This document shows, piece after piece, positions 10,924 to 35,272 of a stretch of 37,569 bases of DNA. The notes below the pieces were generated by a model, which was not told where the DNA came from, made no database searches, and saw only the letters and a list, made by a program, of their open reading frames with translations. Source of the DNA: a virus. The DNA lies in IMG/VR virus record IMGVR_UViG_3300043358_000015, positions 1-37,569 of that record; one strand, given 5' to 3'. How positions within the stretch are numbered: position 1 is the stretch's first letter; each line of letters opens with the position of its first letter. Made by a program: the position numbers and the translations under genes.

Positions 10924-12869
10924 TGCCGGCAGGGCTACCGTATTTCGCCTGGATCGATGCCGGCGAGACTATATTCACGCCTACGCATATGCGCTGGGAC
11001 GAACAGGTGTTCTCGTTCACGCTTGCGCAGGACGAAGGCGATCCGGCCAGCCTCACCGTGGTGGTGCGGCGGCCGCGCAATGTTGCCGGCGATCCGATCG
11101 GGCTGCTCGGACCCGGCCGCAAGATCTGGGCCTGGTTCGCGCTCGACTGCGGGCCGGACTTGGTCAAGTTCCGCGGTCGCCTGGTCGGTGTGCCCACCTC
11201 TATCTTCGAGGAACTGGTGACGCTGGAATTTGTGGCGCGGCCGATCGACCTGGTGGCGCAGAAGAACACGCTCGCCGACAGTCTGCGGGTGCTGCCGTAC
11301 TACGACGAAGTGGTGATCGACGAAGCGCGGCGCAGCGACCCGGAGGTGGTGCTCGAGGGCTACAGCAAGATCTGGCATTACGATCGCGAGACGCATGTGC
11401 TGACCGTCTCGGACGAGATCACCGGCGAGGATGGCCTGGTCGAATTCGACGGCGCCAGCGAAGCCGGCAAGGTGCTCTATGACGGCCTCGGCCTGACACT
11501 GACCGGCGGGCCGCTCGCCAGCGTCGATGTCAATGCTGAATTCACCTGGACCCAACTGGCCCAGGGCAGTGTCGATCTTGCCCGCTACCTGATCTCGAAC
11601 TGGCCGGAGTCAGGGCCGAATTATATTACCTCATACACCTTCAGCGCCGACAACTGGCCGAAGACGGGGGCTTCGATCGGGGACGGCTGGGTCGCTGCCG
11701 AGGCGACTGCGATCTCGTCGTACAGCCTGGAGACCAAGACTACATCGGATAGCGGCACGCTCACGGTCATCTTCCCCGATGATTCGTGGTTCGGCGCATC
11801 AAAGTCCAGTATCTCAACCAGTATCAGCGAGACCACCTTCGATAAGCCGGCCGGCTCGATTGAGTATCCCGAGGAAGCCGTGGACAACGTGTCGTGGACC
11901 GCCGGCACCCAAGATATCGAACTTGTCGGAGGCAAAAGTCAGAACGCATCGCTGAGCCGCAGCTATTCGCAAAACACTTCGGTGCTGGTTTTGAACTATG
12001 CCGAGGTCACGCTGAAGGCCGGCTATTCGGCCAATCGGCAATGCACAGAGCGGGTTACGTTGTCTTTGTTCGCCGATGTGCAACCGATCCTGACGGACCC
12101 GGAGGACGGCGAGGCGCTGCGGATCGACGATATCCGCTCGGTCAATCTGAGCGAAGCCATCGGCGGCGTTGTGCCGATCGGCGATCCGGCGCGGCGATCC
12201 TACATCGCGACCGCACGGGGCAATCAAAGTCTCGAGCATCTGATTGCGCTGGCGCGTGCCAACCTGATGAAGCGGGCGCGGGTGGTGGAGATCTCGTTTG
12301 TGCCGAAACTTTCCCGTATGCCGGAAATCAGCTTGCGCAAGAATTGCTTCCTGACCGAGCCGCGGGTTGGCGAGGCACTCGGCAAGATCATCGGCTATTC
12401 CGTGGCGCTGAACGGCAACGATGGCCGGATCGATTGTCAGGTTCGAATCGGCTGTGCCATCGGCCGCGGTGGCTCGGCGGTTGCGGCAGGCGGCGAGCCG
12501 ACCTACTGCACGATCGATTACACAGGGGCCGATTACCAACAGTTCACCAACCGCATCGTGCTGCTCGATTCCTCGGTCGGCTATCAGCCGCCGAACGCCA
12601 ATCCGAACGACGACGGTCTCAACTTTCTGTCCACCCTGCGGGCCGAGGATGTCATCGAGACTCCGCTGGTGGTCGAAAATCCAACATCGGTGCAGGCGGC
12701 GCATCTGTCCGGCATCAAGGACAAGGATGTGGCGGCCGATGAGCTCAAGAAGGTCGAAACCCGCGCCACCTTCAAGCTCAAGAGCATGACGCGCGAGTTC
12801 GCCAGCGATTATGACATCCAAGTTACCGACCTGAGCATCCCGACCGGATATGATCTGGAGGCGGTGTGA
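10923..12869 (+). CDS. Tail hub / baseplate-like protein
   Basis: The 648-residue product starts with a segment like the first barrel of tail hub proteins (IFTPTHMRWDEQVFSFTLAQ, LTVVVRRPRN, GRKIWAWFAL, FRGRLVGVPT), followed by long beta-rich regions, NLMKRARVVEISFVP and a SATR-like assembly. It probably closes the distal end of the tail tube and carries fibres. Start at 10923 overlaps the preceding stop by one base. The segment around 12480-12700 is variable-looking and may be a surface domain. Confidence 0.6.
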   Translation: MPAGLPYFAWIDAGETIFTPTHMRWDEQVFSFTLAQDEGDPASLTVVVRRPRNVAGDPIGLLGPGRKIWAWFALDCGPDLVKFRGRLVGVPTSIFEELVTLEFVARPIDLVAQKNTLADSLRVLPYYDEVVIDEARRSDPEVVLEGYSKIWHYDRETHVLTVSDEITGEDGLVEFDGASEAGKVLYDGLGLTLTGGPLASVDVNAEFTWTQLAQGSVDLARYLISNWPESGPNYITSYTFSADNWPKTGASIGDGWVAAEATAISSYSLETKTTSDSGTLTVIFPDDSWFGASKSSISTSISETTFDKPAGSIEYPEEAVDNVSWTAGTQDIELVGGKSQNASLSRSYSQNTSVLVLNYAEVTLKAGYSANRQCTERVTLSLFADVQPILTDPEDGEALRIDDIRSVNLSEAIGGVVPIGDPARRSYIATARGNQSLEHLIALARANLMKRARVVEISFVPKLSRMPEISLRKNCFLTEPRVGEALGKIIGYSVALNGNDGRIDCQVRIGCAIGRGGSAVAAGGEPTYCTIDYTGADYQQFTNRIVLLDSSVGYQPPNANPNDDGLNFLSTLRAEDVIETPLVVENPTSVQAAHLSGIKDKDVAADELKKVETRATFKLKSMTREFASDYDIQVTDLSIPTGYDLEAV

Positions 12870-32602: not shown

Positions 32603-33544
32603 ATGTCGATTAACATTACGCCGATCGAGAACTCAAAGCAGTGGCACGCGCTTCGCCGCGGTGTGGTCGGAGCCTCGGAAGCCGGCGCGCTGTGCGGCGT
32701 GCACGAATACCTGACCTATTACGGGCTATGGGCGCGCAAGAGCGGTAAGCTCCCGGCGGATATAGAAGACAACCCGGCGATGGAGCGCGGCCGCAGGCTG
32801 GAGCCTGTCGCCATCGACGTGATCCGCGAGCGCTATCCGCATCTGAGCCTCACCGTTCCGCACGAGCATTATGCGGACGCGACGTACGGGATCGGGTGCA
32901 CGCCCGACCTGCTGGCAACCAGCTCGCTCGGCGACGGTGTGATCCAGATCAAGAGCGTGGCCCCGAGCGTATTCCGGCGGAGCTGGCTCGGCGATACCGA
33001 CGCCGTAACGCCGCCGATGTGGATCGTGATTCAGGCGCTGATGGAAGCCGAGCTGACCGGCTCGAAATGGTGCGCCGTGGCCGCGCTCGTCGTCGATCAC
33101 GTTATCGACCTGCATTTGATCGATGTGCCGATCCATCGCGGCATCGTTGAGACCATCAAGAGCGAGGCCCTGAAATTCTGGGAATTGGTGTTGTCGGGCC
33201 GGCAGCCCGACCCGGACTATGCGAGGGATGGCGAGTTGATCCGGGCGATGTTGCGCAAGGAGGATGGCAGCGAGGTTGATCTGTCTGGAATAAACGATCT
33301 GCCGGAGCTGCTTGATCAGAGGGAAGCGGCAAAGGCTGTGATCAAGGGATGCGAGGACGAACTGTCGGCGATCGATGGCAGGCTCCTCCACATGCTCGGC
33401 TCGGCGGCGATCGGACGATTCAACGGCGGATACATTTCCGGCAAGGTCGTCAATCGCAAGGCATACGAGGTCAAGGCGTCGAGCTACCGGCAATTGCGGG
33501 TGGTGCGCGATAAGGAAAGGAAATCCCATGGTCTACCAGACTAG
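32603..33544 (+). CDS. YqaJ/lambda-exo-type exonuclease
   Basis: The 313-residue product has the family opening WHALRRGVVGASEAGALCG, then ERGRRLEPVAID, a PD-(D/E)xK-type active site with GCTPDLL and VIQIKSV (the IK of the nuclease core), and a C-terminal helical tail. It would resect double-stranded ends 5' to 3' and pair with the annealing protein encoded next (17-base overlap). The pair probably repairs or recombines replicating phage DNA. Confidence 0.85.
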   Translation: MSINITPIENSKQWHALRRGVVGASEAGALCGVHEYLTYYGLWARKSGKLPADIEDNPAMERGRRLEPVAIDVIRERYPHLSLTVPHEHYADATYGIGCTPDLLATSSLGDGVIQIKSVAPSVFRRSWLGDTDAVTPPMWIVIQALMEAELTGSKWCAVAALVVDHVIDLHLIDVPIHRGIVETIKSEALKFWELVLSGRQPDPDYARDGELIRAMLRKEDGSEVDLSGINDLPELLDQREAAKAVIKGCEDELSAIDGRLLHMLGSAAIGRFNGGYISGKVVNRKAYEVKASSYRQLRVVRDKERKSHGLPD

Positions 33545-34424
33545 CGCGATCGCGGAAGTACGTTTGCAGCTCGACAACATGCTGGGGCAATTCCAGGCGG
33601 TGTTGCCGAAACATATCACGCCGGAGCGATTTGGCAGGGTGGTGCTGACGGCGATCCAGAACTCGCCGGAACTGCTCGACTGCGACCGCCGCTCGCTGTG
33701 GAACGCGGCGATGAGGGCCGCCAACGACGGGCTGCTGCCGGACGGCAGATTGGGCGCGATCGTGATCTACAAGGGCAAGGCCGGCCGGCCGCAGGCGCAG
33801 TGGATGCCGATGATTGCCGGCTTGCGGCAGAAGGTCAGGAACTCAGGCGAAATCGAAAGCTGGGAGGCGCAGGTGGTGCACGAGCGTGACCAGTGGGAGT
33901 ACCAGCAAGGCGATACGCCGCGCATTTTTCATCGCCCGGTGCGTGGTGACCGCGGGCCTGTGATCGCGGCCTATTCGATCGCCAAGTTCAAGTCGGGCGA
34001 ACTCAGCCGCGAATGGATGTGGATCGAGGAGCTCGACAAGGTGCGGGCGGTGTCAAAGGCCGTACGCGGGCCCTGGGCCGACTGGGCAGACGAGATGTAC
34101 CGCAAGACGGTGGCGCGGCGCCATGCCAAGGTTTTGCCGATGAGTTCCGATCTCGACGATCTGCTGCGCCGGCCGGACGAGCCTGACGATGATGACGGGA
34201 AACCGGTGGAGCATTCGCCGGAACCGCAGCGGCTCGGTTCCATGACGGATGCGCTTGACATGATCGCGGCCGATACCAAGAAGCGCGGTACAAAATACAA
34301 GCCGACCGCTGAAATGATTGACGAACTGGATGCCGAGACCGGCGAGGTGCTTGACCAGGATCAAGGCGAGTATGCGGAAGGCGATGACGAATTGCCGCCA
34401 CAGGATGAGCAGAAACGAGCGTGA
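33528..34424 (+). CDS. recT: RecT-family single-strand annealing protein
   Basis: The 298-residue product from ATG 33528 (AAGGAAAGG site) overlaps the exonuclease end by 17 bases. RecT features seen include PERFGRVVLTAIQNSPELL, LWNAAMRAANDGLLPDGRLGAIV, WMPMIAGLRQKVRNSG and WEAQVVHERDQWEYQQG, with a C-terminal acidic tail (DDDDGKPVEHSPEPQ). It anneals complementary single strands during recombination. With the neighbouring exonuclease it forms a Red-like pair. The acidic tail may bind partners such as SSB. Confidence 0.9.
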   Translation: MVYQTSAIAEVRLQLDNMLGQFQAVLPKHITPERFGRVVLTAIQNSPELLDCDRRSLWNAAMRAANDGLLPDGRLGAIVIYKGKAGRPQAQWMPMIAGLRQKVRNSGEIESWEAQVVHERDQWEYQQGDTPRIFHRPVRGDRGPVIAAYSIAKFKSGELSREWMWIEELDKVRAVSKAVRGPWADWADEMYRKTVARRHAKVLPMSSDLDDLLRRPDEPDDDDGKPVEHSPEPQRLGSMTDALDMIAADTKKRGTKYKPTAEMIDELDAETGEVLDQDQGEYAEGDDELPPQDEQKRA

Positions 34425-34441: not shown

Positions 34442-35272
34442 ATGACGATAACACCGAAAAACTGGGACACGTTTCAGCATTACAAAAATCGCAAGCCGGC
34501 ATGGATAAAACTTCACCACGGGCTGCTTGATGATTTCACCTTCAGCCGCTTGCCGGTTGCTAGCAAGGCGCTAGCGCCTTTGCTTTGGCTGCTAGCAAGC
34601 GAATATCAGGATGGCAAAATTACCGCTCAAATGGACGAATTGGCGTTTCGCCTCCATGTTATGCCGGCGGATTTGACGTCAGCTCTAACTCCTTTGATTG
34701 ACAGCGGTTTTTTCAATGCTAGCGAGCCGCTAGCAGACTGCTATCAAGATGCTAGCCCAGAGAAGAGAAGAGAAGAGAGAGAGAAAGAGAAAGAGATAGA
34801 GAAGAGCAGAGTAAGAGATATGTCCAAATTATCCAAAAGGGATCAAGCAAGCCACGTACGCGCGCGAGAAGGCGCGCTTTTGCCTTCCGATGATTGGCCT
34901 TCGGATTATGAAAATAGGTTCTGGAAATTCTGGCCCAACAAGGTTGGAAAACCAGCGACCCTGAAAGCTCTCGCTGCCGCACGCAAGCGCCGCTGTTCCT
35001 TCGTCGCGATCATGACCGGAATTGCGGACTACATCCGCGACAAGCCGCCTGACCGGCCCTGGCTCAACCCTGCAACGTTCCTCAATCAAAACCGATGGGA
35101 AGACAAGCCGGCAACCGTGAGCGCAGAAAATGGAAAATCCAGACGAAGCGGCAGCCTCATCGACGCCCTCGACCGGGAGCTCGAGAAAATCGAGCGCGAG
35201 GAAGAAGCTGCTGATACGATGCCAGAGGATGCTGTTCTCAGCCTACCGAGCCGATCAGTATTCCGATCCTGA
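34442..35272 (+). CDS. Phage replication initiator-like protein (lambda O analogue)
   Basis: The 276-residue product begins MTITPKNWDTFQHYKNRKPAW. It has an N-terminal winged-helix-like region (FTFSRLPVASKALAPLLWLLASE, ITAQMDELAFRLH), a highly charged linker (EKRREEREKEKEIEKSRV) encoded by a purine-only tract, and a C-terminal region (YENRFWKFWPNKVGKPATLKAL, DRPWLNPATFLNQNRWED) common to phage replication proteins. Six GCTAGC sites in the gene and the purine tract imply that its own gene holds the origin, as lambda O does. ATG at 34442 is preferred to the GTG at 34421. Confidence 0.75.
   Translation: MTITPKNWDTFQHYKNRKPAWIKLHHGLLDDFTFSRLPVASKALAPLLWLLASEYQDGKITAQMDELAFRLHVMPADLTSALTPLIDSGFFNASEPLADCYQDASPEKRREEREKEKEIEKSRVRDMSKLSKRDQASHVRAREGALLPSDDWPSDYENRFWKFWPNKVGKPATLKALAAARKRRCSFVAIMTGIADYIRDKPPDRPWLNPATFLNQNRWEDKPATVSAENGKSRRSGSLIDALDRELEKIEREEEAADTMPEDAVLSLPSRSVFRS
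34559..34845 (+). other. Putative replication origin inside the initiator gene
   Basis: GCTAGC occurs at 34559, 34570, 34591, 34718, 34729 and 34751. The first three and last three are spaced 11/21 and 11/22 bases, near multiples of the helical turn, and make two matching triads. The second is part of a perfect 16-bp palindrome AAGGCGCTAGCGCCTT (34565-34580). A purine-only run (34759-34796) and A/T-richer sequence (34815-34845) follow. The arrangement resembles lambda ori within gene O. Confidence 0.65.

Follow-up and report, generated by a model that had tools for sequence, protein, structure and literature searches.

Why should a single phage gene carry six exact copies of the palindrome GCTAGC? 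The gene lies at positions 34442-35272 of the window, by which we mean the whole stretch of DNA analyzed (37,569 bases, a virus record in IMG/VR). From the sequence comparisons described below, we consider it very probable that the segment from 34548 to about 34831 is a phage replication origin located within the gene of its own initiator, in the style of lambda and pSK41. Origins of this general kind, embedded in a gene, are known, while the iteron code, the repeat tract, and the natural specificity switch are new; a literature search, which had most subscription journals outside its reach, returned no paper containing both GCTAGC and iteron. Origins are rarely located in the large group of mostly uncharacterized phages to which the gene belongs (the domain is encoded by at least 573 viral contigs), and the segment would supply a concrete one, complete with a short iteron code.

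The initiator gene and its iteron arrays

The gene is encoded on the plus strand and specifies a protein of 276 amino acids. The first-pass annotation had called it an initiator gene, and this assignment is borne out by a family-profile match to PHROG 26426 (replication protein) across residues 1-198, with an E-value of 3.5e-40. The C-terminal half of the product also matches replication-initiation and primosomal families. No Pfam family was matched at E-values up to 0.001, and hence neither Phage_rep_O nor RepA_N (PF06970). Searches found no near-identical phages in the phage collection, no homolog of the initiator in the plasmid collection, and no sequence relative in the PDB, where two chance matches (E-values of 0.27 and 0.82) were the only hits. 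Genes matching a RecT annealing protein (33375-34424) and a RecE-like/YqaJ exonuclease (32603-33544) are located directly upstream. The annotated relatives of the initiator gene are named replication protein and adjoin either dnaC (in PhiPLPE) or a replicative helicase gene (in Cr-LKS3), which fits the helicase-recruiting mechanism proposed below.

Based on AlphaFold2 models, we divided the protein into a predicted winged-helix N-domain (approximately residues 31-97), a linker (approximately 98-150), and a C-domain (approximately 156-216). The model with a pTM of 0.70 has a helical N-terminal domain (helices 39-52, 64-70, and 75-87) that ends in a strand (91-93), and it is from this topology that a winged helix is predicted. 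The top four structures in VIA-align were RepA-type plasmid initiators (4pql, 4pt7, 5kbj, and 4pta), including a Rep-DNA complex, with Z-scores of 6.7-7.5 as compared with 5.5 for the next unrelated row, although a Z-score below 8 may reflect merely a common arrangement. A Foldseek comparison of the N-domain model with the PDB gave no significant match, the RepA entries having E-values of 0.8 to 0.9. The resemblance of the modeled N-domain to the RepA_N plasmid initiators is therefore a lead and not proof.

The exact GCTAGC sites start at 34559, 34570, 34591, 34718, 34729, and 34751. The first-pass annotation described them as two triads with spacings of 11/21 and 11/22. The spacings stand, but the triads are in reality arrays of four sites with one degenerate member each, since two one-mismatch sites, GCTTGC at 34548 and GCTATC at 34740, fill the 11-bp register. 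Array 1 thus consists of the sites at 34548, 34559, 34570, and 34591, and array 2 of those at 34718, 34729, 34740, and 34751; together they span the region from about 106 bp to 315 bp inside the coding region. The two arrays are the only chains of at least four sites in the window (counting sites with at most one mismatch at steps of about 11 bp), against an average of 0.05 in mononucleotide-shuffled windows. The total number of GCTAGC sites in the window is 10, with 6.7 expected from dinucleotide-preserving shuffles, so that the excess consists of the clustering. The six sites within the initiator gene exceed both the expected 1.29 and the highest count, five, seen in any of 200 synonymous-codon permutations, in agreement with the earlier claim that their number is far above chance.

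Conservation of the arrays in related phages

An alignment-based scan of viral contigs identified at least 573 relatives encoding the domain, from which the best 80 by similarity were kept; a scan with the single PhiPLPE sequence had returned no match. Adding the window's own gene, those of two annotated phages, and two of more distant relationship brought the set to 85 genes, and a nonredundant set of 51 genes was obtained by requiring less than 90% identity. The first-pass annotation had pointed to conserved GCTAGC number and spacing at synonymous positions as support for an origin, and such conservation proved to be strong. The 85 genes contain 328 GCTAGC sites, whereas 61 are expected when codons are permuted among synonyms, a conservative control because the unusual codons stay in its pool. 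The density of sites is 5.42 per kb in the gene versus 0.10 per kb in the flanking DNA. In the 51 nonredundant genes, 64 pairs of sites are spaced by 11 bp, 30 by 21/22 bp, and 38 by 32/33 bp, with almost nothing else; since the sequences are related, such counts are not independent events, a dependence that is lessened, though not abolished, by working with nonredundant sets and by the shifts in position.

Relatives have common site offsets at 117, 128, and 149, followed by 276/287 or 279/290, and array 2 shifts along with indels in the protein while the 11-bp step is retained. In array 1, the degenerate iteron GCTTGC (34548-34553), 11 bp before 34559, is found within one mismatch in 41 of the 51 nonredundant genes, and the Leu37 codon under it is TTG in 92% of cases (27% expected). 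The second iteron (34559-34564; gene offset 117) is exact in 45 of these genes, while the third (34570-34575) and the fourth (34591-34596) are exact in 30 and 31 genes, respectively, each being within one mismatch in 46. In array 2, the first iteron (34718-34723) is at offset 276, and most relatives have a counterpart there or at 279; the second (34729-34734), 11 bp from the first, is at offset 287 (290 in others). The degenerate GCTATC (34740-34745) keeps the 11-bp register and has a counterpart at offset 301 within one mismatch in 29 genes, and the last iteron (34751-34756), at offset 309, has one at 312 within one mismatch in 24 genes. Six relatives lack an exact GCTAGC and have GATAGC, GCTATC, GCAAGC, or GCTTGC at the same positions. 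An unbiased enrichment analysis of 6-mers in the 51 nonredundant genes pointed to the same elements, as all of the top 15 words belonged to either the GCTAGCA motif or the AGAGAC/AGAGAG words of the adjacent tract.

Could the clusters have no function in DNA and simply result from conserved Ala-Ser and Leu-Ala residues combined with codon habits or chance? Array 1 does overlap the well-conserved residues VASKALAPLLWLLAS. However, synonymous permutation explains just 61 of the 328 sites, and the codons under the sites are fixed against each gene's own usage: the rare CTA encodes Leu44 in 94% of relatives (16% expected), AGC encodes Ser41 in 94% (29%), and GCG encodes Ala43 in 84% (17%). At the alternative positions 186, 197, and 219, different codons carry sites with the same 11/22 spacing. 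With the arrays also surviving in intergenic DNA, and a sister clade using another palindrome with identical spacing (see below), we regard this explanation as refuted and assign it next to no probability.

Arrays outside the N-domain reading frame were found in relatives from Massilia and Janthinobacterium, where they are located between genes or within the next gene. In two of them (L004 and L005), the N-domain forms a gene of about 100-116 codons with the stop codon inside a GCTAGC, and more sites and AGAAGAG runs follow downstream in the intergenic DNA. In three others (L007, L008, and L010), the element falls within the opening codons of the gene that follows, which encodes a DEAH-type helicase in L008. 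This INDEPENDENCE from coding, whereby one element occurs in three different coding contexts, argues more strongly than any other finding that selection acts on the DNA and not on the protein. The iteron containing the TAG stop of the shortened gene is located at 3293-3298 in L005 and at 3284-3289 in L004. The Massilia contig L008 (3289-5854) has a stand-alone N-domain gene, then the DEAH-type helicase, and then a Toprim/zinc-ribbon primase, a case in which this origin code goes with another type of replication module.

The arrays were also searched for without reference to the protein, using the pattern GCTAGC-N5-GCTAGC-N15/16-GCTAGC in viral contigs. At least 119 stretches matched, and 118 were analyzed; among the matches listed, 104 of the 118 are inside the homologous gene. 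The control palindrome GCATGC at the same spacing gave 26 stretches, with the homolog in none of them. Among the other 14 stretches, several are in genes matching different phage initiator families (L114, L129, L148, L195, L198, and L205). The complete genome of PhiPLPE has five GCTAGC sites, all of them inside the homologous initiator gene. The arrays and the tract that follows them are conserved at the DNA level, unique to the locus, and tied to the initiator family. To judge from these sequences, the same DNA layout is kept across hundreds of distantly related phages.

The AGAGAN tract and the proposed origin

The AGAGAN/AGAGA repeat tract (34759-34818, plus strand) is a candidate unwinding element on account of its codon bias in the 51 relatives and its low stability. 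AGAGAN repeats are present directly 3' of array 2 in nearly all relatives. Within the 18 codons of the tract, Glu is encoded by GAG in 199 of 235 cases (356 of 737 elsewhere), Arg by AGA in 53 of 76 (123 of 719 elsewhere), and Thr by ACA in 131 of 150 (112 of 435 elsewhere). This bias argues that the tract is selected as DNA, the purine run of the window being one version of it. The 38-base purine-only run noted in the first pass is indeed present within the tract (34759-34796), but its purine-only character is not what is conserved. The length of such runs averages 17.5 versus 14.3 in synonymous shuffles and is not clearly longer in most relatives, so we replaced the purine-only reading by that of an AGAGAN repeat with codon bias. 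The first pass also proposed an overlap of a DNA signal with a protein linker; the tract encodes the Glu/Lys/Arg linker and shows codon bias at the DNA level. One stretch of DNA would thus be under two codes simultaneously, and a familiar kind of low-complexity linker in the protein may be a by-product of an origin element. In terms of duplex stability, the second least stable 50-mer of the 37.6-kb window starts at 34782, and the mean profile across relatives falls just slightly beyond array 2. It counts against the origin reading that the tract cannot be called AT-rich as the term is normally used.

By analogy with lambda (PMC7466680), pSK41 (PMC5703833), and SPP1 (PMC6316719), we infer binding, melting, and the start of replication at this segment. 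The winged-helix N-domain would bind the short palindromic TGCTAGCA-like iterons in the two arrays, and the placement of iterons one helical turn (11 bp) apart would bring several initiators onto one face of the DNA. The resulting nucleoprotein complex would open the adjoining AGAGAN-repeat tract, and the C-domain would recruit the helicase or its loader. A switch in cumulative GC skew, suggested earlier as a sign of the origin, did not appear: the curve does not turn at the locus either in the window or in Cr-LKS3. In PhiPLPE, the skew is lowest at position 1, close to the gene (position 860), but this proximity is confounded by transcription direction.

Two other functions of the arrays were weighed against that of an origin. 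First, they may form an operator through which the initiator or another regulator controls its own transcription, or may act as a roadblock, with the origin located elsewhere. Autoregulation is frequent among iteron-binding initiators, and the sites are in an early operon; on the other hand, they are inside the coding region (from about 106 to 315 bp) and away from a promoter, the arrays of L007, L008, and L010 occupy the start of the next gene, and the conserved AGAGAN tract beside array 2 is left unexplained, so that we consider an operator unlikely. Second, the arrays may be a centromere-like segregation site, a packaging site, or a recombination site that is in the initiator gene by coincidence. 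Partition sites also contain phased arrays of repeated palindromes. However, the sites accompany the initiator N-domain even where it is a stand-alone gene, and packaging sites are usually near terminase genes, whereas in PhiPLPE terS and terL are at 6.7-8.7 kb and the sites at 0.98-1.15 kb; functions of this sort are in our opinion highly improbable.

The candidate origin can be compared with several known systems. In lambda, ori is in the middle of the initiator gene O and has four iterons followed by an easily opened tract (PMC7466680), and the likeness to lambda ori proposed in the first pass holds for this order of elements. Both have phased repeats inside the initiator gene and an adjacent low-stability tract, here a candidate unwinding element. 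In contrast, the lambda iterons are 19-bp imperfect inverted repeats beside an AT-rich tract, whereas here 6- to 8-bp palindromes recur every 11 bp in two arrays beside an AGAGAN tract, and the initiator lacks the Phage_rep_O match. In the RepA_N initiators (RepA of pSK41 and pTZ2162, and PLE RepA), a winged-helix N-domain binds four Rep boxes located centrally in rep, the ori encodes the central segment of the protein, and the C-domain recruits the host machinery (PMC5703833). The in-gene sites and the ori-encoded middle segment are similar here, and the N-domain model best matches RepA_N structures; unlike here, the RepA_N iterons are semi-palindromic, of greater length, and arranged around a poly-A tract (PMC7145576), and PF06970 is not matched. 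The oriL of SPP1 in gene 38 has direct repeats and an unwinding element within the gene of the origin-binding protein (PMC6316719). It differs in its AT-rich DUE and in the presence of a second origin, oriR, elsewhere, and the likeness is one of layout. Finally, the DnaA-trio or BUS of bacterial oriC is a short tandem repeat beside double-strand initiator sites; with a different protein and a different repeat, it is an analogy only.

The GATATC clade and other initiator families

A protein search revealed a sister clade in which 46 of 47 nonredundant genes have GATATC in place of GCTAGC, with 76 pairs of sites at 11 bp and 34 at 22 bp, and in which the arrays likewise precede an AGAGAC tract. 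In a tree of 110 N-domains, a branch with 98/98 support sets the GATATC clade apart from the rest, and the GCTAGC users are on several branches around it. This arrangement suggests one switch from GCTAGC to GATATC, tentatively so, as the tree has few columns and long branches. The residues that differ between the two clades are scattered across the N-domain. One gene (in L006) has both a GCTAGC-type array 1 (offsets 120-153) and a GATATC array 2 (offsets 281-292), and is a possible intermediate of the specificity switch. The two clades make a joint change of initiator and origin specificity directly testable.

A more speculative proposal, which we find conceivable but somewhat doubtful, has two parts. 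The AGAGAC-type tract would open the origin in a sequence-specific manner, as the counterpart in phages of the DnaA-trio, so that the ETETETE/EREKEK linkers of many phage initiators would be due mainly to the underlying DNA; and one lineage would have swapped GCTAGC for GATATC with the 11-bp layout kept, leaving a natural record of initiator-origin co-evolution.

Repeats at a similar place were also observed in other initiator genes. In a different initiator family (L246, 1830-1990; L205, about 11880-12040), ACCGTGCTAGC-like iterons recur exactly every 11 bp and give way to some nine GATACT repeats that encode a DTDTDT linker; this layout parallels the one described above, with a hexamer of its own. 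GCTAGC was rejected as a general code for L205-type initiators, as the iterons are present in the closest copy (L246) and absent from most relatives. GCTAGC or GCT-GGC iterons at 11-bp steps are found in the linker region of a DUF1376/Phg_2220_C protein gene (L198, 3869-4834) and of an initiator-like gene (L114, 10291-11247). Two other initiator genes have different repeats at the linker position, namely runs of CTGATTC (L252, 1770-1960) and of GGGGAAT (L148, 4380-4520). These repeats hint that origins encoded in the linker are a general trait of phage initiators. The 39-kb circular Limnohabitans phage DC33 (L014, PQ492659.1) is filed under Inoviridae despite its tailed-phage-type initiator, and this taxonomy may be wrong.
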